Source: Enchytraeus crypticus
Lineage: Eukaryota > Annelida > Clitellata > Enchytraeida > Enchytraeidae
DNA length: 64,000 bases
Direction of reading: 5' to 3'
NCBI GenBank assembly: GCA_905160935.1
Contig: CAJHZI010000794.1
Coordinates: 1,353,501 to 1,417,500, forward strand
Part shown: one piece after another, positions 4,001-61,900 of the stretch
Numbering within the stretch: position 1 is the first letter of the stretch
Layout of the letters: every line of letters begins with the position of its first letter
Translations under genes and position numbers: made by a program
Notes under the pieces: model-generated
What the model was told of the DNA's origin: nothing
What the model saw: the letters and a program-made list of their open reading frames with translations, nothing else
Databases searched by the model: none

Positions 4001-7000
4001 TACAGTGCGACACAGTCTTCTTTATAGGCTGAAGATAAACACTGAGTTACCGTGGCAGGGTAGACAGGATTGTTTTCTCAGGGAATGACGCCCCTGACCA
4101 GTGAATGTTAGTCGAAACTGAGGAAGGCATAGGAGGTCCATCTCTTCATAAGCAGAATCCCCCAATAATAATGGTATATCACCAGGAATGTATAAACAAT
4201 TTAAAGATCCCCTTGTGGACATGAAGCGAATGACGGTAGATAGAAATGAAAAGAGGCGCTATATACCATGGACCTGCCAGTAGGCAGTGCTCTAAGAGAG
4301 AGACCCTGGCAGGTGCTTGTTCTACTCACTGGTTTGCTTTAAATAAAAACTACGGCTTTATGATGTTACCATAACATGTTTCCGTATTTGATTCTATATC
4401 TTAGATGACAAATGGTAGCCATTCCAAGCCGCAGACACACTGTTACAGATAAGAAATCTACTGTCAGACTTACATGTATAACTTACATGTATACCTTCAA
4501 AATGTTCAGTATAGTCCTACATTATAGCTTCCAGAAACCAGAAGCTAAACTCTATAAAATGCTTAATATTGACAAAAATGACAAGTGACAAGCAAACAAG
4601 AGGAAAGCAAATCTACGTTTTAACGTCTAGTTGCAGGGCCAAGTCGATAGCGCGCTAGCCTACTGCATTTCATTCCAGCCTTACTGACTCTGATATGTAA
4701 CATATGAAAAAACAGATGCCATTCTTTGATTTACAAATGGTATCGGTGCACTAACTATACATCACAAACGCACAAACTTACCGATCATTTAAATTTGATT
4801 CATTTTGGTTAAATATAAGCTTAACTACATTAACTGCTTAATAAATTCTCTATTTCTCTCTCTCGTCGTACACTGCCTACTGGCAGGTCCATGGTATATA
4901 ACGCCTCTCCTCTTAATTAATTAAATAATATAAAATATTCAGTATGAATGAATGATGGTGTACAGTGAGTATACCAGATCAAGTCTATCCTGTTGTTCTT
5001 TTTTCTTCTTTTCCTCGTCCTTCATTCTCTTGCTCTCCTTCTCTTCTATCTGCTGCCTCAGCGTGCTGGCCACAGACTTTGCCTTCTCTCGCCTCGTCCA
5101 CTCCACCACCTCTTCCTTGCAGGTTCTGGCTTGTGTGTCTGCGCATTTAAGCTCCGCCCAAATTCTCTCCTCTTCCTTGGCTGCCTCTCTTCTCAACTCT
5201 TTCTCCTTCATCTGCACCAGCCTGTCCTGTGCCACCTACGACATTAATCAAGTGATACAATCAGCAACGAGGAAGAATGAGGAAGGCAACGGGAAACCAC
5301 CTCAGATGCCATATTTTTCCCAAGCTATAGGCTACATAAGTTATGGATAAGGCATAGACTTTGAAAGGATTAACTTGTTGGCATAAGGAGTGCTCTTATG
5401 GAGTGAGAAAATAGACATTGAGTGTGAATATGTACTTTGAACCTGACACTTGTCAGTGCACTAAAGAAGAAGAAGAAGACAATCAGCATTCAACGTCCCA
5501 TTCTTCACCCAAAGGCGCCAATAGTGACGTCCCAGGCAGTGTAAGCATGTATCTAGCTAAGGCGCAGTGAATATTATTCATCGGCTATGACAGTATAATT
5601 ATTTGCGACAATGAGGCAGATATTGAACTAATATTTATTTAAATTTCCATCTCTTTTGCGCAGTGAATACTAACAGAAGAGAGAGTGGATTTATAGAATG
5701 CAAGTCCATTAGTCAAAGCTTGCATTCCATTGCTGCCGTTTACAATCGATCTTAGCATTATTAAATTCCTCAATCGTATATCAATTTAAAACAAATAGTA
5801 TATTATCTACATTTATGCTACAATTAAATTAACATCTCACGACAAAATCTCGAACATTCACTGGACTGGTTATACGGAAAGTGAACTAAATTGCCTAATG
5901 GTTTAAACATGTGATATCAAAAGTGAACGATATCAATATAGTTGATCACATCACTATAATGCGAGTTTAAACGAAGCTTTGTAAGGTGAGTGTACATGTT
6001 TAATAGCACACTATGCAAGAGTTTGTATTCCTATCTTCACTGATGTAAACATGTAGTTTAAAACTTTTAAACGAAGCTTTGTAAGTTCGAACCCTCTGAG
6101 TGAGAAGGTCTGACTGTTTGGCTCTCAGAGAGTCATTCTGACTCAACAGTTGCTGCATCAACTTAGCCTGCACCAGCCTCACTCTCTCTTCCTCCTTCCT
6201 GTTCCTCAGTTCCTTCAGTCTGTCCCTCATCTGCGCTGCCCTGTCCTCGGCCTTAACTTCCATCTCAGAGATCTGCCTCAGATTGGAAGCGTCTTCCTCA
6301 GCCAGAAGGCACCTGAGCTGATGACGACGTCTCTCCAGTACGCACTCGTCCACCTTGAGGGCTGTAGCCACCTTCTCCCTGGTCAAATCAGGTGAATAAG
6401 TGAATCAATCAATCAGTTAATCTGCAGATACCTTCTCTCTGGGCAAATCAGGTGAATAAGTGAATGAATCAACCAGTTAATCTGAAGACACCTTCTTTCT
6501 GCTCAAATAAGGTGAATAAGTGAATGAATCAATCAGTTAATCTGCAGATACCTTCTCTCTGGGCAAATCAGGTGAATAAGTGAATGAATCAATCAGTTAA
6601 TCTGCAGATACCTCCTCTCTGGTCAAATCAGGTGAATAAGTGAATGAATCTATCAGTTAATCTCCAGACACCTTCTTTCTGGTCAAATCAGGTGAATTAG
6701 TGAATGAATAAATCAGTTAATCTGCAGATACCTTCTCTCTGGTCAAATCAGGTGAGTAAGTGAGGGAATCAATCAGTTTATTTAGCCATAAATGAATTTA
6801 GTCCATAAGTAAACAATCACCAAGTTGCAGTTGTTTCGTACTTATGTTACAATGACCAAAAACTTATATTAGCCAATCAGATAATTATTTACTTGTGCAT
6901 GATTCAGCCAATCAGTTATTATCTCAAGAGATAAGTAAAGATACCAGTGAATCATACCATACCACAAAGATGCCATAGGTCATCTTTGGAACTGTCAGCG

Positions 7001-7666
7001 GCTTGAATGATAAAGCGATAAATTAATTGTGATTTCTGTTGATAGATTTAGGTAACGTTAATTGATAATTAAGCGGTTACTGAAAACTAGCATGCTATTA
7101 AATGTTGTATAATGAGTGCAAACGGGAAAATATCTATTTCTAGTGGTGTTTTCTCCATAAAAATGCTTTGTTAGGCCTATATGAGATTGACTGCCTTTGA
7201 CATACACATTTCTCTCTGTCTCCTCTCTCTCCTCTCTCTTTCTCTCTCTTCCTCTTTCCTTCTCTCTCTCTCTCTCTCTCTTTCTGTATTCTCTCTCTCT
7301 CTCTATTTCTCTCTCTCTTTATCTCTTTTCTCTCTTTTCCCTATCTCTCTCTTTCTCTCTCTCTCTCCTCTCTCTTTCTCTCTATCTCTTTCTCCCTCTC
7401 TCTTTCTCTCTCTTTCTGACCTTAACGTTAGCTTTACCAGCTTTCTCACTCTCTCTTCTCTCTCTATCTCTCTCTATATATATCTCTCTCTCTCTCTCTC
7501 TCTTCCTCTCAGTAGCACACGCACACACACATACTCACACTTACCTGAGAATACGTTTATATTGTCTAGTGTTGGTGTGACACATAAAGTCCTCCCTGTG
7601 TCTCTCTTCCTCTATCTCTCTCTTAGTCACTACTCTGGAATTCACATCTTCCACTTCAACCTTCAC
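1055..7666 (-). CDS. CFAP53: Cilia- and flagella-associated protein 53, exons 2(?) to last; N-terminus incomplete
   Basis: Six minus-strand exons join in frame with GT/AG introns: 7666-7545, 6378-6093, 5235-4975, 3999-3790, 2805-2590 and 1690-1055 (stop at 1055-1057), 1731 nt in all. The product is an almost continuous highly charged E/K/R coiled coil. It follows vertebrate CFAP53 (CCDC11) exon by exon: VDECVLERRRHQLRCLL aligns with the conserved ERRxxLRxLL segment, followed by the DRL/EEK-rich helices. KFAIGKLHPRLRREI resembles the usual family C-terminus, but here about 75 further residues follow, ending in an Ala-rich stretch. CFAP53 is a microtubule inner protein of motile cilia needed for axoneme stability and left-right patterning (family knowledge). 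The first 60 or so residues are missing; candidate 5' exons lie near 12.9-13.7 kb. A 60-bp minisatellite duplicates the acceptor of the 6378-6093 exon. Confidence 0.85.
1697..1945. repeat. Minisatellite in last CFAP53 intron
   Basis: About ten imperfect copies of a 24-27 bp unit (consensus ATGACCATAAATAACAGTAT) start a few bases from the acceptor of the last CFAP53 exon at 1690. They create spurious minus-strand ORFs through the repeat. Confidence 0.85.
2031..2312 (+). mobile_element. SINE family D with (GAT)n tail
   Basis: About 280 bp: a head (GGTTGTTTGAAGATTTGACC ...), a middle (GAATGGAAAAGTCTCAAATA) and a tail CTAGTTAAACTGGGATTCAA followed by GAT repeats. The same order recurs at 16770-17045, 37340-37520 and 60645-60915; truncated copies occur elsewhere. 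The last ~100 bp match the 3' end of the LINE fragment at 33108-33320, so the SINE shares its partner LINE's tail. Confidence 0.8.
2444..2586. repeat. Three-copy tandem repeat abutting a CFAP53 splice donor
   Basis: Three copies of a unit of about 57 bp containing TCTAACCCCTTACACAA and TATATCACACAATTCAG. The last copy runs up to the donor of the 2805-2590 exon. Confidence 0.75.
2868..3160. repeat. Degenerate (AATC)n tracts, intronic
   Basis: Two blocks of imperfect AATC/CAAT tetranucleotides flank a short non-repetitive segment that is itself imperfectly duplicated (ATTGAAAGAATG at about 2855 and 3040). Lies inside a CFAP53 intron. Confidence 0.8.
3550..3685 (-). mobile_element. LINE family A 3'-end fragment
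   Basis: Contains TCTCTCTTAGTGCACTTCCT and a degenerate form of the family's TCCATGGTATATAACGCCTC block (TCCACGGTATATAACGTCTC), followed by GAGTGGGTCTTTAAATCATC. This is the reverse complement of the family-A LINE 3' end seen best at 35745-36055. Confidence 0.7.
4025..4320 (+). mobile_element. LINE family A 3'-end copy
   Basis: Plus-oriented copy ending GCGCTATATACCATGGACCT then GCCAGTAGGCAGTGCTCTAA. About 300 bp, no intact ORF. It lies in the intron upstream of the 3999-3790 CFAP53 exon. Confidence 0.75.
4850..4912 (-). mobile_element. LINE family A 3'-end fragment
   Basis: Short terminal piece, TCTCTCTCTCGTCGTACACT then GGCAGGTCCATGGTATATAA. It sits just outside the donor of the 5235-4975 CFAP53 exon. 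Confidence 0.7.
5820..5965 (+). mobile_element. SINE family B, 3' part
   Basis: Carries the B-family body CATTCACTGGACTGGTTATA, CGGAAAGTGAACTAAATTGC and ATAGTTGATCACATCACTAT. The tRNA-like head is missing. Confidence 0.7.
6361..6780. repeat. 60-bp minisatellite that duplicates a CFAP53 splice acceptor
   Basis: Seven copies in exact 60-bp register. The first copy contains the real acceptor (CAG at 6381-6379, minus strand) and about 17 nt of the 6378-6093 exon. The six upstream copies keep a CAG and a degenerate exon start (AGAGAAGGTATCTGCAGA instead of GGAGAAGGTGGCTACAG). Splicing to a decoy copy would meet TAA after seven codons. Confidence 0.9.
6781..7544. other. CFAP53 intron remainder with CT-rich tract
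   Basis: 6781-7180 is unremarkable AT-rich intron. 7201-7520 is a long imperfect (CT)n/(CTTT)n tract ending in a short (CA)n. On the minus strand it follows the donor at 7544-7543. The long plus-strand ORFs over it are low-complexity artefacts. Confidence 0.8.
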
Positions 7667-8084
7667 CTAAAGTAATCAGTTAGATGGAAGTGATAATATT
7701 AGCTGAATGGAGTCATGTAAAATTAAACAAATCAAGTGCCATTTTAATAAGAAATACTGTTACTAATTTAAGCATACAATTTGAACTTTTAATTTTAGTA
7801 TATTGATATTCTAAAAAATTAATAAATAATTTAGTGTAAAACTCATCTGCTTAAATAGCTTATTTAAAGTAAAATACGTCATTAATTTGAACTCTAACCT
7901 GTTAACCTACAGATTAACATAGAATTTAAAATCTAACCGCTTATATGCGATAAGGATTTCCTTATGCGATTTTGAAATTTGCCTTATTATTTGTCTAGTA
8001 GCTCTCTAGTGTAATATTGTTTAGTTATCGCACTTGTGATTTGCACTGGGTCTAAATAGGAAAAAACATTATTCATAGCATGTT

Positions 8085-8420
8085 GATCATCATCATCATC
8101 ATCATCGTCATCATCATCATCACCACCACCACCACCACCACCACCACCACTACCACCACCACCACTACCATCACCACCACCACCATCATCATCATCATCT
8201 TCGTGTGTTAGTCTTTTAACCGAGACAATCGAGAAGCCACTGGAAGCAGCTCCCTACCTCGGAGCAGCGGTTTTTCCACAGGAGGGTGGGGCGGTCCTGA
8301 GCGGTGAGGGGGACTATGCCCAGTGACCGGGGGTGCTGAGAGGACACCTCACGTACCGGGTGCCGGCACCCCCAAGCTCCCCGACAAGTCTTCCTCGTCG
8401 ACATCATGACGAAATCTATG
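8085..8420 (-). mobile_element. Probable retroelement 3' end, GC-rich, with (GAT)n/(GGT)n tail
   Basis: Read on the minus strand, 8405-8215 is a GC-rich segment unlike its surroundings, followed by GATGATGAT and GGTGGTGGT triplets, the arrangement of a LINE/SINE 3' end with a microsatellite tail. A 63-codon open frame overlaps it, but I do not recognise the protein and doubt it is a gene. Confidence 0.45.
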
Positions 8421-9647: not shown

Positions 9648-9697
<50 letters not shown>

Positions 9698-25600: not shown

Positions 25601-28600
25601 TTATATATATAAAATCTTATATATGATTTCTATTATGTAGCTCTCTTATTTTCAGAAATATGAATGTTGCCTTTATGGTGCTCTTGTATATATGGAATTC
25701 TATTAGTTTAAATTTCTTATAATTTATGATTTACATATATTTCCTTATGCTTCTAAAAAGTAGGTATTTTCGATGCAAATATTTATATGGCTTCTAGAAA
25801 ACGCTTTTTATTCTGGATTAATTATTTTGTATTTTCTTACATTATCTTGAGAATTATTTAACGTTGTTTTTACACTAATGAGACTTATTTATTTATATTT
25901 TCCTTTGTTATTTTCTTATTTATTCTGGTGTAACTTAAGTCATTGGTAAACTATGTTCTTGCCTAATTTATAATATTAAGCGTGCCTTAAGGACAATTAT
26001 GTATTTGATGCATATATCGGCATTGTTAATTTTTATCATGACTTGTTTGTACATTGTAGATTCATGCACCAATATACAATCTGAATCCTATGATCACAAG
26101 GCAAAGGTATGCCTTAGTTACTACATGACAGAACAAAATTTTTGAAATGATTTAGGAAGATTAATGAATAGATACTGTAATATTCATGGATAATTTTTAA
26201 AAGTGTTGTGGGGATTCATGTTAAATTTAATTTTTTAAATAGTTAAAAAATAAAATATAATTAGCTTCATTTTAAATATACTTGTTGTTATTAAATGAAC
26301 AATATTATGTAAAGGCTAAAAATGTAATTAAAGTATTCGTAGAATTCTTAAAGCCGTCTTATTGGCTGATACTTCATCTTAAATCAAAGCAAAACTTGAG
26401 CCTCGTGTATATCTAGAATTATAAATAGAGAATTGCATATTAAAATATATGGTAGTGCATTATCCTCTATTTTCTGCCTCAAGTCTGGTGCTTTAAATAG
26501 GAAAAATGTTTGAATTTTGAGCCTTGCACAAATATTTTTAACTTTTTATTAGGAAAAGATATTATGTTATTGTAATTTAATTATAATTTTAGTTGATATT
26601 TAATTCAGGAATAAAATAGTTTAGTTTAGGTACTCTGAAAGGAAATATATGATATATTCAGTATAAACATGGACAGACTTTTGAGACAATAAACAAACAT
26701 ACATCTTACTTTTCTTTAGAAGTCTACTGTTAATCGATGTTTGTTAAAAAGCTGGTAAAGCTAATGTTAACGTCAATTTCCTCACTGGAAAGCGATGTCA
26801 GTGACGGGCGAACCCAGAATAGAGGGACTGTTATAGACACACTGTTCGTTGCTGTTATATATTTTGCAGCCTGTTCATTGTCTATTGCAAATATTGTAAA
26901 CAGTTTATTGTTTGTTGTAGATATTGCAGACTATTTGTTGTTTGTTGTAGATATTGCAGACTATTTGTTGTTTGTTGTAGATATTGCAGACTATTTGTTG
27001 TTTGTTGTAGATATTGCAGACTATTTGTTGTTTGTTGTAGATATTGCAGACTATTCGTTGTTTGTTGTAGATACTGCAGACTATTTGTTGTTTGTTGTAG
27101 ATATTGCAGACTATTTGTTGTTTGTTGTAGATATTGCAGACCATTTGGTGTTTGTTGTAGATATTGCAGACTATTTGTTGTTTGTTGTAGATATTGCAGA
27201 CTGCTCTACCTAGATCTCTCTATGGCCTCTGTGACAGTGGAAGGCTTAGAAGAGATTCTCTCACAATGCTGTTCTCTATATAAACTCAGTCTGGAAAACT
27301 GTCAAGTCAATGACGCCATCTGCAGGTATATGCTGACAACTGACGTCCCTGGCGTCATCCTTGTATGAGAAAACGGACGTTAAACCTCTATTACTATTAT
27401 TATTATTATAACGATTTCATCAGTTAGTTTACATTGCCTTTTACTATTTTAATAGATCTGAAAGTTTTAGCATATTATGCTCTATTTGATATACCATCGT
27501 TCTGCATTTCTATTATTTTTTAAAATAGTTAAGTTGTAATATGCTCACTATTCGAAATACAGAGTTTTGCATTTTTTATCTTTAAAATTGTTTAAGCTGT
27601 AATTTACACGTTATTTGGTGAATCGTATTTTTATCAGAATTTAACTTTTTCATCATATAAAAACATATGGCAGGAGTAGTTATAAAAGCTAAAGATATAT
27701 TTTGATCTCCGATTAAGTTTTACTATAAATTATATTTATATAACTTAAGTATTATAAATTTATATGTATTTAATATTTAAGGCGTGAATAATGAGTAATT
27801 TGTTTATCATTACGGAAAATCTAATTTAGTTGTGGTGTTTTGCATAAATCATATGCTGGATATTCTCCCTAATATTATATATCAAAATACAACTGAAGAA
27901 AAGCTGCAGATATATGTCAAGCTTAATAAATATTAATAATAAAGGTTTCACGTCTGTTTCCTCATACAAGGATGCTGTCAGGGATGGCTTATGGTATATA
28001 GAGTAGATGGAACTAATAATAATAAAATAAGACTATCTTTAGAGGTGAAAATGAATCAAAATCACCAGACATATGAAAAATGTTGGCTATTAAATTTTTA
28101 AAGCAATGACAAATAATTAATTAATGAATTTTATATAATTTACTTCTGTTCTGCTCGTGTATAGGTACATTGGGCAGAACCAGTATTTGCAAACTCTCAA
28201 TATGGCGCTGTGTCAGGGTCTGACAGAAAATGCTCTCGTGCCTATCTGCAACAATCTGCAGCGGTAACTCTGACCAGAATTATTCTCTATCTCTCTATTT
28301 CTCGTTCTCTCTTTCTTTCTCTCTCTTTCTTTCTCTCTCTCTTTTGAGTTGATAAAATTTACTTGTCTAAATGACAGATTAATTTTTTTAACTGACGTTA
28401 TTATCAGTTATTATTCTAGTCATTTTCAAATTGGTTTATTGTCTGTCGGATCGGGTGAGTCACTGATTGATTCTTTAACTGATATATTTACTAATTTATT
28501 GATGTATTGGCTGTTACATGGTTTAATCGATTGATAGCTTGCTTGGTGATTGATTAATTGAGTGACAGATTGCTTGACTATCGATAGATTGACTGTCTTA

Positions 28601-31299
28601 TAGAAAGGTGTATTGATTTAGTTATAGATTGATTGTTTTATTTCGATTGATTTGTTGACTGCTTGATTTATTTTTTGATAGGTAGATTTATGGAAGGAAT
28701 GACTGATTGACTGAATTTTCTGAATTCATGATTTCTTGATAGTCTGAACTTAATGATTGATTTATGAACTGAATTTACTGATTTATTGAAAGGTTGTTAG
28801 AGTTAAGCTTGGTATACAAGGTGTATTAATTTAATAATTATAGATTGATTGTTTTCCTTCTAGATTCGTAGACTGATTGCTCCTTGATTTATTGATTGAT
28901 TGAAGGATTGATTGATTGATAAACTGAATTTATTGATTGATTAATGGATTGATTGACTGAATTGATTGATTAATTGATTGATTGATTAATTGATTGATTG
29001 ATTAATGGATTGATTGACTGATAAGCTGAATTGATTGATTGATTGATTGAAAGGTTGTTAGAGTTAAACGTGGCGTGGACTAACATGAGCCGAGGAGCCG
29101 TGGTTTATCTGGTCACGTGTCTACCAGCCAGCCTCGTCAGACTTAATCTCAGCGGCAACAGAGAGAGTCTTACTGACGAGGGTTTGACATATATCAATAT
29201 GAATCAATCAGTTCATCCAGTGCTGTGCAAATCAATGAATCGTTCGATGCCAATATGCAGAACGTTTTATGAATTTGAAATTAAAGTTCAGTTTATGAAT
29301 GACATTGTAATCCTACTATATTCTATCATAAAATCAAATTTTGAGTATTATCAGATGTGGTAAATGTGTAGGAATCAGGGCGATTCTTTTATTACTTATT
29401 AGATTAATATAATAATGCAGTAAATAAGTTCTGCCACTGCAGTGTGTGCAAATAGTCATCTCAAATTCCAGTTGTCGTATTCTGATTCATTCTAAAATAA
29501 ATTAAGATAACCATAAGTGTGCGTCGTCTTTTCACGGGATGATTGATTAAATGATTGATTAGTTCTTTTCACTGGATGATTGATGAAATAAAGCTGTTAA
29601 AGCTAAGGTTAACGTCAGTTTCCTCGCTCGAAAGCGATGTCAGTGACGGGCGAGCCCAGGATTTGAACCCGCACCTAACTGATCCTCGGTCGAGTATCTA
29701 ACCGACTTCGCCACTGGCTCCAGCCAAATGATTAGTTCTTTTCACGGGATGATTGATTAAGTGATTGATTAGTTCTTTTCACGGAATGATTGATTAATTG
29801 ATTGATTAGTTCTTTTCATTCGATGATTGACTAAATGATTGATTAGCTCTGTTCATGTGATGATTGAATAAGTGATTATTTAGTTCTTTTCACGGGATGA
29901 TTGATTAATTGATTGTTTAGTTTTTTCTGCTCTACTGACAACAGATGTACAACAGCTGTGCAACAGTTGTCCTGACCTGAAAGAACTTGATTTGAGCGAC
30001 GCGAGACCTCTAACAGCGTTGACTGTGGGTTATATTGTGGATGGGCTGAAACGTCTAGAATATCTGGCGCTCAGTCGCTGCTATAACATCCTACCTAGCT
30101 CTCTCTTGTACGTCTAACGTTACTGCATCTACTTAGGAATCTAGTTCTATATATTTAATTAATTGATTGCTAGGTTAGTTAACATAGTTCTATGTAGTTA
30201 ATTAATTGTTGCTAGGTTAATTAAGATAGTTCTATGTAGTTAATTAATTGATTGCTAGGTTAGTTAAGATATAGAACTATAATTTTGCCTAGGCTGGAGC
30301 CAGTGGCGAAGTCGGTAAGATACTCGACTGCGGATCAGTATGTGCGGGGTTAAATCCTGGGCTCGCCCGTCACTGACATCGCTTTCGAGTGAAGAAACTG
30401 ACGTTAACCTTATCTTAACCAGCTTTATCATCTTCATCCACATAGAACATTTCGCTTAGGTAATACTCAACTAAATGTCAAATCTGGCGTAAAATAATTT
30501 AAATTTTCTTTTATCTGAGTGAGCTAAACTGGTTTTCAGATTGACAGCTCTCATCATGAATTCATGCTTATTTAAGTTAGTAGGTCTTAATTCTAAAGTT
30601 GACGTCAATGATCTTTTATTGCTGTTGCTGAGAAATAGTTGGATGGTTTTATGCTCAATGCAATATGTTGACGGCTCTCTAGCCCTATAAGTAGGTACCA
30701 GAGATTCGATTCTCATCTGTCCCTGCCTATCTATATATTATTATTGTAGTTTGATACGAAAGCTAATACTAGCATTTTCAAATTATTTTATAGTGAAAAC
30801 ATTGTTATTTTGCTCATTATATGCACTGTACATAGAGCAGTGTTACCTGCTTGCATCATTTGTTTTTTTTATGTTTTAATTTGATAGATAGATTGATTTT
30901 AAGGGTATATTTTACATAATAGCTGTATCATTTTAACAGGATGATTCCAGTTGATCGATTCTATAGGTTTTTGTGGCTATATAGTTTCAATAGATAGCAA
31001 TGGATTGATTGTTTGATTTTATTAGTATATTTTATGTCGCCGCGTCATTTCTCTACAATGATTAACAGCGGTTGATCGATTTTTGTTGTTGTCTCTGCAG
31101 CGCACTGGCTGATCTGCCAAGCCTGGTGGCCTTCGACATGTTTGGAATGTTGAAGGAAGCCGCGGTGAACTGGTTAAGAGAAGCCCTGACCAGAGTCCGA
31201 CACGTCAACGACTTTCCACTCTCCAGTATTGCCAGACCTTCCACTATAGGACCTCAGAGTCGATCTATCTGGGGCGTCCATGTTGCCGATCCTTGCTGA
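22062..31299 (+). CDS. SKP2: S-phase kinase-associated protein 2 (F-box/LRR subunit of SCF ubiquitin ligase), complete
   Basis: Eleven exons: 22062-22090, 22737-22959, 23557-23716, 24162-24270, 25018-25132, 26060-26106, 27200-27325, 28165-28263, 29054-29181, 29945-30107 and 31101-31299 (TGA). They join without a frame break into 465 residues (human 424). The start ATG is the first in frame after an upstream TGA. An N-terminal VWDVDAEKTREMMEDVGV matches the SKP2 N-terminal motif. The F-box is at about 138-175 (PWCILSDEIMLSVFTWLPK, RVCRRWNRV), followed by LWRRLD, then leucine-rich repeats (LLYLDLS, LSLENC, LNLSGN, LKELDLSD, LALSRCYNI). The tail ARPSTIGPQSRSIWGVHV matches the SKP2 C-terminal strand that caps the LRR. 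SKP2 recruits substrates such as p27 to SCF with the cofactor CKS1 (family knowledge). Exon 2 uses a weak donor (GTAGTT). Tandem repeats duplicate the acceptors of exons 7 and 9. Confidence 0.93.
22365..22500 (-). mobile_element. LINE family E 3' tail
   Basis: AACAAAGGTTTAATGCCCGT, TTCCTCATACAGGGATGAAG and CACACATCACTACT, as at the 3' end of the LINE at 55985-56877. In SKP2 intron 1. Confidence 0.65.
22540..22606. repeat. (TA)n microsatellite
   Basis: About 33 TA dinucleotides in SKP2 intron 1. Confidence 0.95.
24330..24440 (-). mobile_element. SINE family F, reversed
   Basis: TACAGTCATCAATGTC, GGTGCAAATTCCAGGTTCCA and TCAGTCCAAAGTAAAG. A short (AATA)n tract at 24300-24325 stands where the tail should be. 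In SKP2 intron 4. Confidence 0.65.
26740..26830 (-). mobile_element. SINE family C fragment
   Basis: AAGCTGGTAAAGCTAATGTT, CTCACTGGAAAGCGATGTCA and GTGACGGGCGAACCCAG, a reversed 3' half, next to the SKP2 30-bp repeat. Confidence 0.7.
26900..27199. repeat. 30-bp minisatellite carrying the SKP2 exon 7 acceptor
   Basis: Ten near-identical copies of TTTGTTGTAGATATTGCAGA plus CTATTTGTTG end exactly at the acceptor ATATTGCAG/ACTGCT of exon 7. Every copy contains the same GCAG/AC acceptor core. Because the period is 30 and the frame is open, a decoy acceptor would insert LFVVCCRYCR per copy in frame. The ORFs on both strands here (158 and 79 codons) follow from this. Confidence 0.93.
27330..28164. 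other. SKP2 intron 7 with LINE E tails
   Basis: 27340-27415 is a plus-oriented family-E tail (CATCCTTGTATGAGAAAACG, GACGTTAAACC, then ATT repeats). 27935-28080 is a minus-oriented one (CGTCTGTTTCCTCATACAAG). Between them is AT-rich intron. Confidence 0.65.
28280..29053. repeat. (GATT)n-rich SKP2 intron 8 with tandem duplication of exon 9 start
   Basis: A CT tract at 28287-28343 is followed by about 500 bp of imperfect GATT/TTGA tetranucleotides. Two large diverged units begin AAGGTGTATTGATTTA (28605) and AAGGTGTATTAATTTA (28818). Each ends in GAAAGGTTGTTAGAGTTAA, the real acceptor plus exon 9 start at 29054 and a decoy at 28793. Confidence 0.8.
29520..29935. repeat. About 40-bp tandem repeat in SKP2 intron 9, split by a SINE
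   Basis: Six or so copies of CTTTTCACGGGATGATTGAT plus TAAATGATTGATTAGTT run up to the exon 10 acceptor region. A reversed SINE C (29588-29728: AACGTCAGTTTCCTCGCTCG, AGGATTTGAACCCGCACC) sits inside the array, flanked by repeat copies, so the array predates the insertion. Confidence 0.8.
30130..30285. repeat. Three-copy 48-bp repeat
   Basis: Three copies of TTAATTAATTGATTGCTAGG plus TTAGTTAACATAGTTCTATGTAG in SKP2 intron 10, followed by a plus SINE C at 30290-30425 (GGCTGGAGCCAGTGGCGAAG, GCGGGGTTAAATCCTGGGCT). Confidence 0.8.
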
Positions 31300-49800: not shown

Positions 49801-52413
49801 ACTTTACGTTATTTCTATAGTTTAGTGAAACTAAAATAAATAGAATGCACAAGTTTTAATCAGACCGCCTGCTTGTGTAGATTTTGAATCAATTAGTCAG
49901 TTGTTTGCATTACGATTGCAATATGAATGAATAAAATTAATATGAGGGGCTTATATGATCCAGCATCCAAATTTTTTATCTCAATACTATATGAAAAAAA
50001 TCTAAATTTCGTTAAAAATTCTGATATGTATTAATTTACATCCCTGACATCATCCCTGGATGAGGAAACAAATGTTAAGCCTTTCTTATTATTATTATTA
50101 TTATTCATTATTATTTATTTAATGTCTATAGATTTGATTAGGTATCTTAGTTATATACGTAGGTAACTCTCTATTGCATATTAATCTCTGTATGAATTGA
50201 TGTAGTTCATGATGAAATGAACGCAAAGTTATAATTGGTTGATATATTTTTGTTAACGAACGCAGAGTTATGATTGGTTAATAATATTTTTGTTTCACAC
50301 AGGCTGTAACTCCGCCCAACACGCAGCAAGTTGCGTCGTTTCCCACGCCGATGCCGACAGCTGCAGCAGTGGCAGCTGCAGCTGTCACAGCTAAGATCAC
50401 TGCTATGGACGCTGTATCAGGGGTTTGTCTGCTAGTCTTCTTCTTTCTCTTACTCTTAGAATGGTTTTATTGTAGTAAGAGGATCCTAGTTAATAATGCA
50501 TGGTTATATTTGCTGTATTCTACTGGAAAGGACAACAGAATTAATGAATTGAAATAAATAATTATTTAGTAATTGGAGAACGTCTATTTGTATCCCGACC
50601 CTGTTTAAACTGGGATTTAAGGGAAGGTGATGATGAGTAATAATATTATTGTTATTATTAATTATTATTATTAACATCTTGTAATTTAAATTAAAAAATG
50701 TATTGAACGAGTCACGTAATTTCTACCTATGGAAGCATTTGGGTCGTATACTGATGAGTCATATGCTGAGTCTTATACTGATGAGTCATATGCTGAGTCT
50801 TATACTGATGAGTCATATGCTGAGTCTTATACTGATGAGTCATATGCTGAGTCTTATACTGATGAGTCATATGCTGAGTCTTATACTGATGAGTCATATG
50901 CTGAGTCTTGTACTGATGAGTCATATGCTGAGCATTGTCTTATATTAGTGAATTTTCATTAGCGAAAATGAATTTTCAGCTGAATTTTCATTTTTGTATT
51001 GCTATTTGTAGACTGGGCTTGGACTGGGGCCACCTGGAGTGGCTACACTGCCACAACTCTCAGTGCCAGGGCTTAACTCACTAGGTACGCTGTGCCTATC
51101 GTCGTAAATATTACATTATTGTATTTATAATTATTTATTTTATAATTCTTAAAAATTACATTATTGTATCAAATTATCAATGTACTGTTTAACTGTTTAT
51201 TTCTTTAGTATTAATAAATAAAAAATTATTATTATTTTTCGTAATTATTTTACTGTGTTGTTATTATATTAGAGTAAAATTACTACAGTGATAATAAGGA
51301 TGTAATGATAATTTTAAAAAATGTATGACGATAATTATTACTATATGATTTTTATCGTTATTTTATTATCTAATCTACTTTTATAATATTAATACATTAT
51401 TTAGTAGCTACTATTTATTGTTATTATTTATTTTCATTATTTGAAGTAGCTCGGCCCATTAATCATCATCTATTAATTTCTATGATTTTATTTTGTTGCT
51501 ATAATTATTTGATATAATTGTGAATTTAACCCTAAGGTGATATTGGTGCCAATGGCAATGGAATAGACTATGCAGCTTGCAGGTAATATGTGGCATAATT
51601 CGTTTTACAGTTTTGTTAATTAGTCTATTCTATCGTACTATATTACAAGAATGCTTTCAAGATGTTAAAAGTTAAGCAGCAGATCTTATCATATCTCCAT
51701 CGGTCACCTCTTACAAACTCATGCGGCTATTGATAGATTCAGTTTTACTTTGTTCGAAACTACTGAGGTATTATTTCACTGTACTAATGTTTCAGGCGGA
51801 GGCAGTAGGCTAGGCAGCATGCCCCTGGCTGCGGGCCTGCCTCCCCCCGCTGTCGTGGTGCCCACGGTCGTCGCTACGCAGGGGGTGGGGCAGGTGGTCG
51901 GGGCCGATAAGAGAGAGGCGGACGATGACGTGAGCATTGCGAGTCAGGAGAACATGGCGATCAGTGGCACCCAGGCCAGGCACATGGTCATGCAGAAACT
52001 CATGAGGCAGTCTGAGGTTGTTTATTTATTTATTTATTTATAATTAGAAATCAGGCAGCAAGGCCTACACAAAGCACACAAGACACACAGCACATCCATA
52101 AAATCAGGTAAACACTCATAAAATCAGATATTATAGTACTAAAATGTTGTTGCTGCACTAGAGGTTGTCTGTGATGCTAATATCTTGTGTTATTGGCATC
52201 TGTTTTGTCATTTTTGGTATTTTTTTTATTAGTCTAGACAAACACTATAGCATCATTTCAGCAATCAATTAATAAGCATGGCAACCATAAGCGTAGCAAC
52301 CAACCATTTATTGATTTATTGTAGTCACGGGTGATGGTACTGAAGAACATGGTAGGAGCCGCTGATGTAGATGATGACCTGGAGAGCGAGTTGATATACG
52401 ATTGATTGGTTGG

Positions 52414-52445
<32 letters not shown>

Positions 52446-54263
52446 AGTCACGGGTGATGGTACTGAAGAACATGGTGGGGGCCGCTGATGTAGATGATGA
52501 CCTGGAGAGCGAGGTGATTGACGAGTGCTCGACGTATGGTGACGTCAACAGAGTTGTCATCTATCAGGAGAAACAGAGCGACGATGACGACGCAGAGATC
52601 ATCGTCAAGATATTCGTCGAGTTTAAAGAACCGTCAGGTCTGTCGATCATTTTGTCTGTAAGCGCAGCGAAAAGGCGCTACTGGCTGCCATACCTCATAT
52701 TTGATTAATTACTATACTTTGCAATAAAATATCACAGTAACACTGACAAGTCAATAGGTAGAAACTGCCAGTAAACATTTTTATGGTATAGAACAGATAA
52801 TAGACTAATTAGACAATAGTCGAATCTAGCAGCTGAAGTGTAATATTGTTGTGGCGTAAGTGTCCGTGCTGTTCTGATATTGAATTAACAAATCTCGTCA
52901 GAATGGTCGACGAGATCTGTTCTTAGTTTTTCCTTAATCTTTTTATCCCGTCGATACCGGTTGTTGTTTCAAGCTACAGAGAGTGGGTCATTCTTGTTTG
53001 ATGTTTTTCTGAGTTTTCTTCCAGTTTTCTTATGCTTTTTATTGTGCTGTTAGAAGACTTGCTATCACACTGCATGTTTTATTTTTAAAATTTATGTATA
53101 AAGCCGTTGCGTTTTAATTACGAACTCTAGATTCCTTCTCTTAAAAAATTCTTTTCTTTAAAAGTTAACCAAATCTTTTGGCCCGTTGAATCATTCAGAT
53201 GCATATCTCTCAACTGTCGTATACCTATAAATGTATATCTCTGGTAGTAATTTTTCTTTTTGATATTAACTTCTGTTAACAAAAAATATGTATGATTAAA
53301 TCTTTGCTTTAAATAAGGCATCGGTTTGGGTTTGGAAACAATGCCTTGACCCTCTTGTATGGCTCATCAATGGTGTGCTCGGCTCTGAGCGACAAGAGGG
53401 TCAGACAAGAAGACAGAGGACAAGACAGACAGACAGACAGACAGAAGAGGACAGACAGAGCGACAAGAGGAAAACAAAACTGCTGTATGCGACTTGTGCT
53501 TTAGATCTGCCATGTGGCTGAACAGTTGATCGAGTGAAATATTATTGTCCAAAATCATTTCGTAATCATGCCGAGTCTAGTTCACTCTTCTCATCGATAT
53601 TATGTGAAATTAGCATTATACCATTAGTATTGTATTATCATTGATCGTTAGCATTGACCCATTAGCGTTGTACTATTAGCACTGTACTATTAGCATTATA
53701 CCATTAGCATTGTACCATTAGCATTATACCATTAGTATTGTATTATCATTGATCGTTAGCATTGACCCATTAGCGTTGTACTATTAGCACTGTACTATTA
53801 GCATTATACCATTAGCATTGTACCATTAGCATTATACCATTAGTATTGTATTATCATTGATCGTTAGCATTGACCCATTAGCGTTGTACTATTAGCACTG
53901 TACTATTAGCATTATACCATTAGCATTGTACCATTAGCAGTGTACCTTTGACATTGTACCATTAACATTGTACCATTAGCATTATACCACTAGCAGTGTA
54001 CCTTTGATTTTGTACCATTAGTATTTTACGCTTAACATTGTACCATTAGCATTATATCATTAGCATTATACCTGTACAGATTGTGCTGGTTATATCTAAA
54101 CCTTTCTGCTGTTGTAATTAACTAAATAAGTGGAAATGTGTGTTTTATGGCAGGCGTGGAGAAGGCAGTGAAAGCTCTCAACGGTCGATATTTCGCCGGC
54201 AGACAAGTTCGGGCGGATCCCTATGATCAGGCTTTGTTTGATTCAAATGAACTGACTGCCTGA
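43841..54263 (+). CDS. PUF60: Poly(U)-binding splicing factor PUF60, complete
   Basis: Eleven coding exons: 43841-43865, 45682-45937, 47001-47039, 47531-47744, 48676-48803, 49240-49414, 50303-50422, 51012-51084, 51796-52016, 52448-52637 and 54154-54263 (TGA). They join in consistent phase to 516 residues (human 559). The first exon starts at an acceptor at 43749, so a 5' UTR exon lies upstream. Features: [21 protein letters not shown]1 at about 107-178 ([35 protein letters not shown]); RRM2 at about 203-278 ([27 protein letters not shown]); an Ala-rich linker; [17 protein letters not shown]; and a C-terminal U2AF-homology motif domain at about 418-516 with the R-x-F motif R492-Y-F494. PUF60 binds polypyrimidine tracts with U2AF and aids 3' splice-site choice (family knowledge). 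Exon 10 is preceded by a partial tandem copy of itself. Confidence 0.95.
44100..45681. other. PUF60 intron 1
   Basis: AT-rich DNA. 45170-45330 is a minisatellite of about 21-22 bp (GGATAAGAATAGCAGGATGG). 45548-45606 is a SINE D / LINE tail fragment (GGTTAAACTGGGATTTAAGG then GATGATGAT). Confidence 0.7.
45960..46312. mobile_element. LINE A fragment (-) followed by SINE F (+)
   Basis: 45960-46145 is a reversed family A end (GTGCACTGCCTACTGGCAGG). 46180-46312 is SINE F (TTTTGCACTGTTTTGGACCT, GTTGTCATCGACGACAG, then GTTATTATTAATAAT). Both in PUF60 intron 2. Confidence 0.7.
47810..47915 (+). mobile_element. SINE family F, degenerate
   Basis: TTTGCTGGATTTTTGACTTT, GGTTCAATGTTTTCATTGAT and GGCAGTAGCACTCTAAGG then GTTGTTGTT. 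In PUF60 intron 4. Confidence 0.65.
48170..48635. repeat. About 21-bp minisatellite upstream of PUF60 exon 5 acceptor
   Basis: Some 20 copies of GTTTATTATGTGTAGTCCAG alternating with GTTAAGTATTTATTATGTGT. Each has a pyrimidine/AT run followed by TAG, much like the true acceptor CTGTATGTAG/GTTGG at 48675, but the exon itself is not copied. The 136-codon Cys/Leu-rich ORF is an artefact. Confidence 0.88.
49525..49640 (+). mobile_element. SINE D / LINE tail fragment with (GAT)n
   Basis: GATGATATGATGTAGGACAG, CAACCCTAGTTAAACTGGGA then GATGATGATGATGATGAT. PUF60 intron 6. A second tail fragment is at 50578-50640 and a family E tail at 50035-50105. Confidence 0.75.
50740..50935. repeat. 24-bp minisatellite in PUF60 intron 7
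   Basis: Eight copies of ACTGATGAGTCATATGCTGA plus GTCTT/GTAT. The unit is open in all frames, which yields three repeat ORFs on both strands; none is coding. Confidence 0.93.
51537..51582 (+). other. Possible alternative (poison) exon of PUF60
   Basis: A 46-nt segment between an AG (CCCTAAG) and a good donor (GCAG/GTAATA), in the intron between exons 8 and 9. Including it would keep [15 protein letters not shown] in frame but shift the next exon to CGG AGG CAG TAG, an immediate stop. The acceptor tract is weak. Splicing factors often autoregulate with such exons, but this is only a hypothesis. Confidence 0.25.
52325..52396 (+). pseudogene. Partial tandem copy of PUF60 exon 10
   Basis: ATTGTAG plus the first ~68 nt of exon 10 with two or three differences (GGTAGGAGCC for GGTGGGGGCC), 123 bp upstream of the true exon. 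It has no donor and reads into TGA (TAC GAT TGA), so inclusion would truncate the protein. GATT repeats separate the two copies. Confidence 0.9.
53610..54075. repeat. Nested tandem repeat in last PUF60 intron
   Basis: Short units (CATTAGCATTGTAC and variants) make up a higher-order unit of about 123 bp that occurs three times (GTATTGTATTATCATTGATC at about 53628, 53735 and 53847), then degenerates toward the acceptor at 54153. Confidence 0.85.
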
Positions 54264-55984
54264 GTTATCGACTGTTATCTATTCCATCGACTTGTGACTG
54301 TTTAGATTAGTACAACACGCAGAACTGAAGAGGCTGAGCTGTTAATATATCGTCTGTGATTGTTACTGGCTGGAGACAGTGGTGATGTCGGAAAGATATT
54401 CAACCGCGAATCATTATATGCGGGGTTCAAATCATGGGCTCGCCCGTCACTGACATCGTATTCGAGTGAGGAAACTGATGCTAACATTTAGCTTTACCAG
54501 CTTTTTTATGCTGCATAAAATCAATATAATGGCTAGAGATGCTGATGGACAAGTTGATAGCATGCTTGGCTGATAAGATGGAGGCCATAGGTTCGAAACT
54601 CTGCAAGACAGTTTCTGACCGAGTCCTTGTGGTGCGAAAACTGGCATTAAGCTCCCTATGTGAACTGACAGTATAGATATAATTATAATTTTAGTCCATT
54701 GTAATAGTAACTTGTGCATCAAGAAATATTGATGCACTGAAGTGTTGAATGCATGATTAAATTGTGTATTGATGTAAAATTCACTTGACCTCGCTGTTGT
54801 GTTGACATCTAAAGAATTTGCCATGGAGCTATTCAATTTGCTGTTTGTTTAACGAGTGTTTTAAATATTCAGTTAGGTTTATATTATGTTTTTGCCTCTT
54901 GGTATATTAGTATTTTAGTAATTAATTTGTAGCAAATATTTTAGCCGCTCGTCCGAGCTACTGAGGTGCTGTGGATTTAAAACGTAGTAAAAGTAATCAT
55001 GCTCACTGGTAGTGTCGCTTCTAAAGGCGCCGCAGGATGTACGAAAAATAGAGTTATGTTTATCAGCGCGGCTGGGATTAGAACCCACGAGAGTTCAAGT
55101 CGCCAAAGGATCTGTCATTTTAAACTTCATGACGTTACCTCTACGCTATTAAGACATTCAATAATAATTAGCTAATAATTAACTATCATAAGCGATACTG
55201 TCAGAGACGGGTCTGGTTGAGGTTTGAACCCATGTCCTGCTGATTCTCATTATGATATATTTGCAGATTAAGCAATAGGCTTACATGTAAGTAGATCTAG
55301 AATAAACTAATATATAAAATAAACTAATGAATCTAGATTGTCTCATTAGCTTAGTAAGTGCATAAGGAAACGTCATACAATTTTAATTGGCTGTTTCTAA
55401 TATCCTGGGATCAGTTCCCGGTAGAGCCGATCAGAACCTAAGTAAATCTCGGACATTCACAGGATTCATCAATAATTATTTGACCAACTGCATGAATAAG
55501 GGTTAAACATACGTAGGCCTACGTGGTATTGAGAGTGATACATATTTGTGTGTTAGTTTTTATCATAGCTCTAAATATGATAGTTTTAGTCATATATCTA
55601 AGAATTTCCTTTCACTGTATATAATGTGCGTTTAGCTTTTTACAGTGAAATTTTATAAATTTCAAGCAGAAATGGAAGGTTCCATCACACGACAGTCCGG
55701 CAATTATATACCCAAAGTTACCTCACTATATATAACACCGTAATAATCTAAATTATGCCTTGATGGAGGAAAGGGAAATTCACGCTCATATGTGGAAAAC
55801 TGAATTTTTGGATCAGTTTTGAGTGAATTATATTTAATTAATTAAGGACATTATTGGCAAAGAGTAAAAAGAAATTAATATAATAATATACAATTAATGT
55901 TAAACTTCGAGAAACATAATAAGCATCGACATCAGATTTACAAAAAATACAAAGCGCTATAACCACATATATTTAGTCAATGAG
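54264..55984. other. Downstream of PUF60: three SINEs in AT-rich DNA
   Basis: 54365-54515 is SINE C (GGCTGGAGACAGTGGTGATG, GGGGTTCAAATCATGGGCTC). 54530-54680 is another tRNA-like element (ATAGGTTCGAAACTCTGCAA). 55060-55165 is a reversed SINE B (GGATTAGAACCCACGAGAGT). No gene seen. Confidence 0.65.
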
Positions 55985-56877: not shown

Positions 56878-57600
56878 TTAAAAGGTATTCAGTTTTGGTA
56901 TTAAAAGGTATTGAGCACTATGAAAACGAAGCTAAGCCAACGAGTAGGCCTACAAAATAGCTGGCGCCGACCCATAGGCCTACAGTTTTATATAATTTTA
57001 AATTGCTCGCTTTCAGTAGGCTAGTACTTTGAATGACATGATATGCAACAGGGAACTATCCTATTCAGTATTTTACAGTTAAAAATCTTTTGTAAAGTTT
57101 ATCGCACTGTATTGTGAAATAGCCTATCAGTTTCTGCAAGGTGACATCTGATACTTGCACTCCAGTGTCTCTGGTAATATAATATCATTCGACCTTGTAT
57201 TTTAAATATTTAATTACCTATGCTAAATTAAAGCGTTAATTTTCCTGAAATGAATCCTTAAGAATATCTCAATATAGAAAATCAGAAAAATAAAGTATAC
57301 AATTTCAACACAGAATTATTAGCTCAATAGCAAGAAAAATGTGCAAAAAATAGTTTCAATGTGAAGTATTGTTATTTGGTGGCGCTAGTGTGTAGTATCG
57401 GGCTTCCGTTAAATAAATATGTCACACAGACAGGAATAGAAAATGCTCCTGGTAAAATACCACATATTCCTATCCAATCCTACTATTTTACAGAAGATGG
57501 ATCACATACTTGAGCATTCGTTTGTAATCTGTATTATTTGAATTCAGTTTGAACTCATAATTTTCTTATCGTTTATTTTTATTTTCCAAAAGTTAGGCAA
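56878..57600. other. Intergenic AT-rich DNA upstream of adducin
   Basis: No gene, repeat or motif that I can support. Confidence 0.6.
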
Positions 57601-57629
57601 AAAGGAAACCCTGGTGTTGATAGATGAAC

Positions 57630-57805
57630 AACATGGCGGCTCTGGATTAATAGTTGTTGCTGCAGCCGAACTGTTGATTCCTAATATTTCTCTCTGCCTA
57701 ATTACTATAATTGCTCATCGTGTCGTTAGTTATTAGCTAAAATATATTAAGTAACGCATTTTAATTTTTAAAATTCGTTTAGACTAATTGTCTGAAATCA
57801 GCAAG
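57630..57805 (+). promoter_or_regulatory. Probable adducin promoter/5' UTR exon with YY1-like element
   Basis: AACATGGCGGC at 57630-57640 matches the YY1-type element common just downstream of animal transcription starts. A consensus donor, AGCAAG/GTAAGACAG, follows at 57805. Since the first coding exon at 58966 begins directly after an acceptor, an upstream non-coding exon is required, and this is the best candidate. Confidence 0.5.
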
Positions 57806-58419
57806 GTAAGACAGTAATACTGCAATCGTAAAATTATAATTTAGGCACTCTGCAAGAGCTAATTTATATAAATTACAGTGTTTAACATCCAGCATTAAGA
57901 AATTAAACTAATTGAAATAGTAATTTAAAAAATAATGAGACAGTAAACGCAGTGAATCCAGAAAACTTGATCTATTTAGTGGTACTAAAGGAATGGAAGC
58001 TTAGGCTTTTCCATAGTTGTATTTAAATGAGTCATTCGCATTGATCATTAACTTTAAAAGCTTGCATACTTATAAAAACTTTATATTTTGTAAGACGTTC
58101 TTATTTACGAGAAGGTATATTGCTGTCCTAGATAGAAAGGAGATAAAATAAATTATATATAGCTCAGGAAATTTATAGTTAAATGACATAGAGTAACTTA
58201 AAATACAAAATTGTTTAGACAAAAATTAAAAATATTGGCTTCATTTAGAAATTTACATGTAGTAATTGGGTTATGTCCTCAATACTTCACTTGGAAGATA
58301 ACAGCTTTACAATTCGTACATTGTTTCCTTACTTTTAGTTTTACTGACCAGTTCTAAACTTTAGCAGTGTCTTGGAGGGTGATGATCATCTAGATTTCTT
58401 TACAGGTTCTTGTCACTGG

Positions 58420-58680
58420 TATCTCTCTCTTAGTGCACTGCCTACTGGCAGGTCCATGGTATATAACGCCTCCACTCTTCTCTGGCTTCGATTTTCCTCA
58501 TCATGTCCACATACAAGTGGATCTTTAAATCATCTATAACATTCATTTTGATATACCATTATTCTTGAAGGATTCTGCTTATGACGAGATGGGCCCCCTA
58601 TGCTTTCCTCAGCTTCGACTAGCATTTACTGGGCAGGGGCGGCATTCATTCCCTGAGAAAACAATCCTGTTTACCCGTCA
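58420..58680 (-). mobile_element. LINE family A 3' end
   Basis: CTCTTAGTGCACTGCCTACT, GGCAGGTCCATGGTATATAA, GAGATGGGCCCCCTATGCTT and CATTCATTCCCTGAGAAAAC, the same extended form as 4025-4320. Confidence 0.75.
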
Positions 58681-58966
58681 CTGGTATATTATAATTAATC
58701 ATATCTTTGTTGTTGTCCCAATTGACAGCAAGCTTTGAAACACATTAACCTTCCGGGGTTCTTGTGGGATTTGCATTTGTTGTTGACTGACCTGGGCTTT
58801 GAACCCTGGCCACTTCCTACTAAGGTGGCTCGAACCGTTATGACATAATCTCTCCTCTCAATTTGACTATATTTATTGATGTCATCTAACCATATCTTAA
58901 CGCAAGTGATAGATTTTTAATGTATATAATTGTATGTACGATTTTTCATGTTTATTTTACTGCAGT

Positions 58967-61900
58967 ATGGCAGTAGATAGTTATCAGAATGGACCCAGCG
59001 GAAAGGGAAAGTATATTGATGATATGGGTGAGTGTGACTAATTTTAAAGTATAATGTGGCAGGATTAACGATTTTTGTTTAACGATAGGTAGTATCTGAT
59101 TGGGCATTCTAGTTCATGTACTCTTTTTTAATTAATCTGTATTAAATAGGAAGCTCTAATATTCCTGGTTGGTCTGTACTTGATATTTCATTAGCTAACA
59201 ATATTCTCACTTGTGCATTTTTATATCTAGATTTGGCAATTATCGGCATTACAATTTGTCAACAGATAATGCTTTCTTAGTCAACCTCATAACCTAGTAT
59301 CTACCTGTGTTTAATTAGATACGGTTAAGTATGATAGGTTGTTTGTTACAGTATTCCTTGTAATGATATGTGTTCAACTCAAGGAGTATACTATAAGGAA
59401 AAATAAGCAGAAGTCGAGAAGGCCATGAGAAATCACTTCTGTAGCCTTTAATGTGACCTTAAATATCAGGAATAGATGATGAGATAATAATCTATATATT
59501 TACGACTGATGTTGGTAGATTCACTGACGTTACTTAAGGATGCAATTTATCATGATTTACTGATTGATCATTGATAGCAAATGTAAAATATTTGTTCTAT
59601 TTAACTGCACAGATATTTAAACGCTTTTTTTACATCTTTTAAACCCTTTTGTAATGTATCTAATTATTTTGACTATATTTCCATTGAAATATTATCATTT
59701 TACACATTTTGGAAGCACACTTTATGCTTCTTGATTCACCCTGTTGATAGATAGAAAGGTAAAGCTAAAAGCTAATGTTAGCGTCAGTTTCCTCACTCGA
59801 AGCGATGTCAGTGATGGGCGAGCCCAGGATTTGAACCATACAAATACTAATCCGCAGTTGAATATCCTACCGATATCACCACTGGCTCCAGCCAATTGTA
59901 ATTATATGTCAACTGTGCAGGGTTGTCAAACCCTTATCGGTGTTTCAAATCAATACAATTCAAAGATTGATGGAACTTCTGTTAGATGCCGATGATCCGG
60001 AGTATCAGCGGCAGATGATGAGACCGGTGGAGGTCAAGGAGGACGTGCGGCAGATGGAAGAGAGGAAGAGAGTCAAGCAGATCTTACACAGTCAGGCTTT
60101 CTGCGAGGAACTGCAGGAGCTGGTGCTGGAGCAGTTCCATCCGTCCATCGTTGGACTGCGTGGAGGTCTGAATGGAAGCTGCATAACATCAGGCTCAGCT
60201 CAACAACTTTCTGATCTAATCATGCCTCATGCTCGCGCTACGCTCATGAAGAAAGGTTTCGTTGACTGCTATTTATGACTAAATTGCTCAGTTATTGGTA
60301 TTTGTTATTGAGGCTACTTATTATTTATTTAATGTCATGAGAATGTTTAATATTTTGAGAATTTTTTGATCACAAAAATTGTAGCTATTAATTAATAACA
60401 TATAATTTAAATTTAGACCATCTTACTATTATCCTAGTTCTCTGTTACTTCAATTGACATACTCTTTCACTTTTTCTCTAAAAATTTAATTTTATCTTGT
60501 TTCCTTTGACATTTATTTCTGTCTCACTTCAGTTAATTTTATCAATTCTATTTCGCTTCCATTATCATGTATCTGCTACATGTATCTATCTATCATCTCT
60601 TTCTTCCTTGATTATTTAAACATTTCATTTTATACTTTCCCCGTGTTGTGTCTAGGTTGTTTGAAGAATTGATCAACTGGTGACTGCACGTGTCGTAGAA
60701 GGCGACTAAAGCATTAAGATCCTTACCAATGTCAGAAAGGGCATTCGGTTGGTGAGAGCCTAGGCTCCAGAAATTTTTACAAAAATTTCAACAAATGGAA
60801 AAGTCTCAAATAGTGGATTGACTGATGGATGATATGATGTAGGATTTGAGACAGTCTATTCGTATCTCGACCAGCCCTAGTTAAACTGGGATTCAAAGGA
60901 AGATGATGATGATTAAACCTTATTATTTAGGGAAGATGATGATGATGATTATACTTTATATTAAGGGAAGATGAAGATGATGATAATACTTAAAATTTAT
61001 ACTTGAGTTGCATTAATTTCATTCAGGTGTAGGCCCATGTATTCCAGTCGCTGACGTAAGAGAGCTGGAGTTGATGGACTATGATAAGGGAGAGAGGCAG
61101 TTCCGCTGTAGACTCTCTTCTCTTTATCGTCTCGTAGATCTGTTCGGCTGGTCGCATGGCATTCAAAGCTATATCACTGTACGTCTAATTAACTGCTTAC
61201 AGGCTTCCTAAACCTATCTTCTCATAAAATACAGTATTATTTATTTAAGTATAAATAGAGCATTATTTAGTTATGTGTGCCACAAGATTCCAGTGAATGT
61301 CATAATTGCTTCTCCTGAACATTGTTATATGCCAAGATAGCATATAGTTTGTAATAATGTATTCTTTATAGAAAATGTGCAAATTTATGAATATTGTGTA
61401 AAGACTCGTTGTTCCATAAATTCAGAAGATTTTAATAATAAATTCATGTCATTAAGATAGTACTATGGTTTCTGATTTGTCTTGTTAGGAAAAATCAATC
61501 AACATTTTGAGCACTTTCTGATTGATTGATTGGGGAAGAATCAATCAAGATTTTTAGCACTTTCTGATTGATCTTGTAGGGAAGAATCAATCAAGATTTT
61601 GAGCACTTTCTGATAGCGCCGTACGGAATGCTCCACCACGAGGTCACAGCTTCAAGCCTCGTTAAGGTTGACATGAGGGGGGAGGTGCTAGATCCTGGCA
61701 GCTCCAGTCTAGGGGTCAACAAGACCGGGTTCTCTCTCCACTCAGCCATCTATGCCTCACGTCCGGACATCAAGTGTGTGATTCATGTACGCTGCACCCC
61801 GGCTGTGTCTGTGAGTATTAGCTTGAGTGTGCTGTGCGATTGTAGCGTGCTGTTGCTAAAATATGATTAAAATTTTGGATCTACGTTGACAAAATGCTAC

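Follow-up and report, generated by a model that had tools for sequence, protein, structure and literature searches.

Mirage-type tandem duplications of intron-exon boundaries, biased towards acceptors, in the annelid Enchytraeus crypticus

In a stretch of 64,000 nucleotides from Enchytraeus crypticus (contig CAJHZI010000794.1, positions 1,353,501 to 1,417,500; hereafter the window), a sequence-only reading had pointed to five tandem duplications that straddle 3' splice sites, namely in CFAP53, SKP2 (twice), PUF60 and adducin. All five are confirmed here as acceptor-spanning, the duplication carrying the intron 3' end into the exon in 5/5 cases (Table 1). The closest known kind of element is the amphioxus "mirage", and structurally the arrays described here are mirages. 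In a larger sample of the same genome the pattern is acceptor-biased, about 2-3 fold in well-scored exons, and not acceptor-only. From our point of view, the arrays are probably, though by no means certainly, mirage-type minisatellites whose acceptor bias arises from the density of arrays at intron ends and whose decoy acceptors are bypassed by exon definition.

The five cases are separate duplications, as had been proposed, with copy numbers of 2-10 and unit sizes of 30-261 bp. In CFAP53, the identity of which is supported by a match with an E value of 5e-12, the array copies carry an acceptor such as ..TTTGACCAG/AGAGAAGGT (the slash marks the intron-exon junction), typical copies agree with the exon at 8 of its first 9 nt, the repeat match extends 17 nt into the exon, and the AG is kept in 6/6 aligned decoys. 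The PUF60 gene (match with E 7e-79) shows a longer overlap, with 80 exonic nt at 92% identity, while in adducin, recognised by its N-terminal Aldolase_II domain (E 2.6e-31), 35 exonic nt lie inside the repeat at 89% identity and the aligned AG is gone from both upstream copies (0/2 kept). The first SKP2-like array has only 3 exonic nt in common with its exon and gave no scored decoys, since the anchor required 12 exonic nt; a further array in this region (29729-29927) ends short of its acceptor and does not cross the boundary. The name SKP2 is our own reading of a putative gene for which the matches show only leucine-rich repeats (LRR). Three arrays, those of CFAP53, adducin and the first SKP2 case, are in the output of Tandem Repeats Finder (TRF); the duplications of 123 bp in PUF60 and of 261 bp in the second SKP2 case come from sequence reading and diagonal comparison. 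The idea that unit lengths are multiples of three fits 4/5 window cases (30, 60, 123 and 261, not 46) and fails at other loci, where offsets of 41, 71, 73, 121, 130 and 350 occur.

Table 1. Duplicated units and the exons that they enter in the window (positions are those of the window).
Feature	Position	Strand	Unit or detail	Basis
CFAP53 array	6370..6778	-	60 bp x 6.8	TRF and sequence
CFAP53 exon	6093..6378	-	5' end is the terminal copy of the array	exon model and CFAP53 PDB match
SKP2-like first array	26904..27202	+	30 bp x 10, copies ..GATATTGCAG/ACT	TRF and sequence
SKP2-like exon after first array	27200..27325	+		hand reading; exon model did not find it
SKP2-like second decoy	28793..28820	+	repeats the acceptor and the first part of the exon; lies 261 nt before true start 29054
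SKP2-like exon after second decoy	29054..29224	+	true acceptor after (TTGA)n	exon model, low score of 1.5; LRR frame by hand
PUF60 unit	52325..52447	+	123 bp: copy of ~80 exonic nt, (GATT)n and acceptor; decoy start 52325, true start 52448	sequence
PUF60 exon (UHM domain)	52448..52632	+		exon model and PUF60 UHM match
Adducin array	61469..61614	+	46 bp x 3.2	TRF
Adducin exon	61580..61810	+		exon model and Aldolase_II match

The wider sample of 331 kb consists of the window and 29 further loci from a searched genome of 524 Mb in 802 contigs. Twenty loci lie around strong RRM matches, one per contig, with one stop-containing match and the window's own skipped, and nine were chosen for dense kinesin exon matches; the sample thus represents two gene families plus the window and is not random. 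An exon finder trained on 60 Pfam-seeded exons predicted 226 exons, 217 of them internal, and recovered 59/60 seeds in frame, the seeds being part of its training set. Eight of the 217 internal exons were themselves repeats and were removed, which left 209. A boundary was counted as crossed by an ungapped repeat at a distance of 10-400 nt that covered 8 nt or more to either side of it and scored at least 16, and exons with an exon score of at least 15 (n=133) were taken as well-scored. The SKP2-like exons were missed or low-scored by the exon model and stand outside the well-scored counts.

Among the 133 well-scored exons, 19 acceptors were crossed versus 6 donors (sign p 0.015), with no exon crossed at both ends; at a repeat threshold of 30 the numbers were 15 and 4, and weak cases (repeat score <25) make up 4 of the 19 acceptors and 2 of the 6 donors. 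An exon score of at least 10 (n=156) gave 22 versus 9, a set that includes decoys in L014 and L013 called as exons, and a TRF-based count gave 17 versus 7 of 156 (p 0.054). With the window left out, 16/111 acceptors and 6/111 donors were crossed (p 0.052), or 15 versus 5 at threshold 20 (p 0.041) and 12 versus 4 at threshold 30 (p 0.077). Not all of these cases are independent, since L030 and L031 have one common array and L013 contributes three crossed acceptors. About one acceptor in seven is crossed in the sample. At random intron points (n=3000), 11.4% have an upstream copy and 12.7% a downstream copy, so that acceptors are crossed at about the intron background and are not clearly enriched, while donors are crossed at about half the background or less. 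The suggestion that acceptor duplications exceed chance is hence supported against donors, but not clearly against the intron background.

Duplicated donors, of which the first reading had seen none, are indeed missing from the window, where zero donors are crossed among the 26 exons scoring at least 10, but they do occur elsewhere (L033:5378, L011:6381, L034:5465 and L036:3032, with two weaker arrays in L020 and L016). An acceptor-only pattern is ruled out by these arrays. In L033 a kinesin exon has its donor followed by at least seven repeats of a 44-bp decoy-donor unit.

The difference between the two boundary types is seen well inside the introns. At 30-100 nt from the boundary, arrays cover 25-27% on the acceptor side and 12-19% on the donor side at equal depths, and at depths of 40-100 nt they are found in 38-40 of 147-149 versus 20-27 of 146-147 cases. 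From a depth of 50 nt to the boundary itself, arrays drop from 39/149 to 21/146 at acceptors and from 23/147 to 9/146 at donors; as this drop is similar on both sides, much of the surplus on the acceptor side exists before the boundary is reached. Overall, TRF arrays with a period of at least 10 cover 9.7% of the 330,999 bases of the window and the 29 loci. Part of the asymmetry is associated with one motif: runs of at least three TTGA units in predicted introns number 107 in sense and 7 in antisense orientation (16 versus 3 loci), sense (TTGA)n lies within 60 nt of the acceptor in 18/120 introns compared with 4/120 for the donor and 2/120 for mid-intron, and at 50 nt depth TTGA-type arrays count 13 on the acceptor side and 5 on the donor side. 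TTGAT matches the loose branch-site consensus yUnAy. Of the two causes that had been offered, a mutational bias at intron 3' ends is supported by this higher array density. Separately, TTTTT and TCTCT are less frequent in the last 100 nt before acceptors than in mid-intron (156 exons), which is unusual for a polypyrimidine tract.

The other proposed cause, namely that extra acceptors are tolerated, is supported as well. Seventeen acceptor arrays were analysed, 16 of which gave 94 aligned upstream copies, the alignment threshold favouring similar copies. Decoy acceptors do precede the true exon, as had been proposed. The AG is kept in 81 of these 94 decoys versus 82.3 expected from copy identity; over all arrays, the decoy AGs are neither purged nor conserved and show about neutral drift. 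A weight matrix learned here places 33 of the 81 decoys with AG level with or above the true acceptor (12 of the 33 in L021). Among the 79 AG decoys in 15 arrays with exon models, 35 are in frame and 1 is in frame and stop-free, and a stop or frameshift is predicted for 78/79 if used. If the genes work, splicing would have to pass over most decoys, or the resulting products would have to be removed. The nearest decoys lie at least 24 nt from the true site in the arrays examined, which excludes NAGNAG tandem acceptors with their spacing of 3 nt. Whether the terminal copy is a hub or an outsider of its array was judged from decoy-anchor versus decoy-decoy identity at a looser threshold with more copies (L036 includes microsatellite matches), and no clear sign of either was found in 8 arrays, the means differing by at most 0.08. 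One exon of a PUF60 paralog (L014:8200-8900) is preceded by 13 aligned AG-bearing decoy acceptors. The exon finder itself called decoys in L014 and L013 as exons, three of them in L014; gene predictors can thus mistake decoys for exons.

Comparisons between paralogs give some indication of array age. The kinesin paralogs C405 and C617 carry one 41-bp unit at one acceptor with an identical 8-nt deletion relative to the exon, and their four-fold sites match at 18/24 in the array-adjacent exon versus 6/18, 14/28 and 12/24 in three others, which suggests that local gene conversion may have acted beside the array. The array and the more similar neighbouring exon of the kinesin paralogs, at L030:5352-5698 and L031:414-1371, form a possible gene conversion tract. 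By reading, a kinesin gene in L036 has a different array at that same intron, the ELAV-like genes L010 and L013 have one shared intron with different arrays, and PUF60 and its L014 paralog have an arrayed acceptor in common with differing unit lengths. "ELAV-like" is our label for putative genes of a set in which the domain matches show kinesin and RRM domains. Since shared introns carry differing arrays across paralogs, these introns predate the arrays.

In amphioxus, mirages are known from Adh3 and the globins BflGb6 and BflGb9, where, according to PMC3087553 (Ebner et al., 2010), both boundary types can be affected and regular splicing is undisturbed; PMC3902484 adds PGBD5 and TnC and likewise reports undisturbed splicing. 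As described there, mirages are, like the arrays here, minisatellite-like tandem duplications of an intron-exon boundary in unrelated genes, with units of 10-160 bp and with AG or GT retained in many copies. The same features are found in E. crypticus: the unit spans the boundary in 5/5 window cases and at 19 acceptors and 6 donors of 133 exons, 5' and 3' boundaries are both affected, and many acceptor copies retain AG (81/94). The pattern, with which the first reading was unfamiliar, is hence not without precedent, given that amphioxus mirages duplicate both boundary types (PMC3087553). Mirages have so far been reported from cephalochordates, and although the present host is not one, taxon is not a structural criterion. 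What differs from amphioxus is the annelid host, the crossing of ~1/7 of acceptors, and the acceptor bias and sense-TTGA link measured here. As far as searched, mirages in the annelid phylum, at high frequency in this sample, are new; no annelid case appeared among the matches listed for annelids or polychaetes or among those listed for duplicated splice sites, which were judged by title or abstract start with most subscription journals outside the search.

Other systems are less similar. The internal tandem repeats of human segmental duplications (PMC2812944) are also minisatellites that alter gene structure, some of them at exon-intron boundaries, but they concern recent human paralogs, and every second case lies in coding sequence. 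The metallothionein of earthworms (PMC12783039) offers an annelid gene with intronic minisatellites and duplicated exon-4 copies outside the final transcript, whereas boundary-spanning arrays are not described in the passages seen.

As regards the phylum, the mitochondrial order cox1, trnN (GTT anticodon), cox2, atp8, cox3, nad6, cob, atp6 was read from 6,000 of 15,205 bases of a contig that is taken to derive from this animal. We take this to be the annelid order, and atp8 without atp6 directly after it excludes the amphioxus order, so that amphioxus is rejected as the source. ARAGORN with the bacterial code found no tRNA in L038, and the mitochondrial tRNA was identified via Rfam. A short tRNA-like repeat (..CTGGAGCCAGTGGCGAAGTCGG..), SINE-like by eye, is further scattered over the window (29594-29726, 30290-30430 and 54369-54500) and occurs in either orientation.

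Under the explanation that we prefer, the arrays would be ordinary tandem arrays, frequent in introns here, the terminal unit of which happens to comprise the real splice site and the first exon bases. They would originate by local tandem duplication through slippage or unequal exchange, after which the terminal unit would be preserved by selection on the exon and the upstream copies would drift and turn over; array copies indeed differ from each other, with AG retention near the neutral expectation. The excess of crossed acceptors over crossed donors would be due chiefly to the higher density of arrays over the final ~100 nt of introns, the zone in which sense (TTGA)n runs resembling tandem branch sites concentrate. 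The decoys are probably ignored, as the acceptor adjoining the exon body could be chosen via exon definition, an idea with which amphioxus RT-PCR agrees. One could go further and speculate that in this annelid many introns have 3' ends made of sense UUGA repeats which function as tandem branch sites and make acceptors a hotspot for boundary arrays, and that exon definition alone lets the spliceosome reliably find the last acceptor behind as many as 16 near-identical decoys; we regard this as unlikely, if worth stating.

Several observations weigh against the preferred explanation. Without an exon-score cut (n=209), the crossed acceptors number 27 and the crossed donors 16 (sign p 0.071), or 21 versus 14 at threshold 30 (p 0.21), and the gap is modest throughout, with p values of 0.011-0.077 across subsets and thresholds. 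Arrays other than TTGA-type are also mildly commoner on the acceptor side at 50 nt depth (26/149 versus 18/147), so that TTGA does not account for everything. The loss of AG is uneven, as L014:5236 keeps 4/11 where 10.1 are expected and adducin keeps none, while the other arrays keep slightly more than expected; neutrality consequently holds only as a sum over arrays, and although there is no overall sign of conserved or purged decoys, L014:5236 lost AG in excess. Genomic sequence, moreover, leaves room for some decoys to be used. Pure chance, in which some arrays of minisatellite-rich introns overlap exon edges and the acceptor-donor gap is sampling noise, would fit the near-background acceptor rate, the p values of 0.041-0.077 without the window and those of 0.071 and 0.21 without the exon-score cut. 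It is nevertheless disfavoured by an acceptor-side density raised across 30-100 nt and not just at the edge, by the distribution of TTGA runs, and by a sign-flip over loci (exon score of at least 10, threshold 20, window included; one-sided p 0.021), and we give it a minor but real chance.

The remaining alternatives appear weaker. That the decoys serve regulated splicing or the routing of transcripts to decay would agree with the many that equal or surpass the true acceptor in score and with the stop or frameshift that nearly all of them would introduce, as a decay switch would need, whereas the neutral overall AG retention and the units that differ between paralogs at one intron (the ELAV-like and PUF60 pairs) make it improbable. 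Intron gain under way via tandem duplication of AGGT-containing segments, the Rogers model (cited in PMC3087553; compare potato RdRp in PMC4974935), also copies splice signals in tandem, is a route proposed by the amphioxus authors (PMC3087553), and finds an echo in the CFAP53 units of the form AGAAG/GTATCT. Unlike in that model, existing introns have one edge duplicated here and no new intron is shown, and one kinesin and one ELAV-like intron, by reading, are common to paralogs with different arrays and are thus older than the arrays instead of being absent from homologues; we consider this route very improbable. False expansion in the assembly is least credible of all, for although short repeats can be misassembled, copies differ within the 8 arrays compared (decoy-anchor means of 63-92%) and the kinesin paralogs share their unit and deletion on two contigs.

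Overall, the present analysis extends what had been a curiosity of a handful of lancelet genes to a second, distant phylum in which it is frequent. Each array represents a natural experiment in which the true acceptor faces rivals whose consensus is as good as its own or better, and acceptor choice in E. crypticus would bear on the roles of position and exon context versus site strength.

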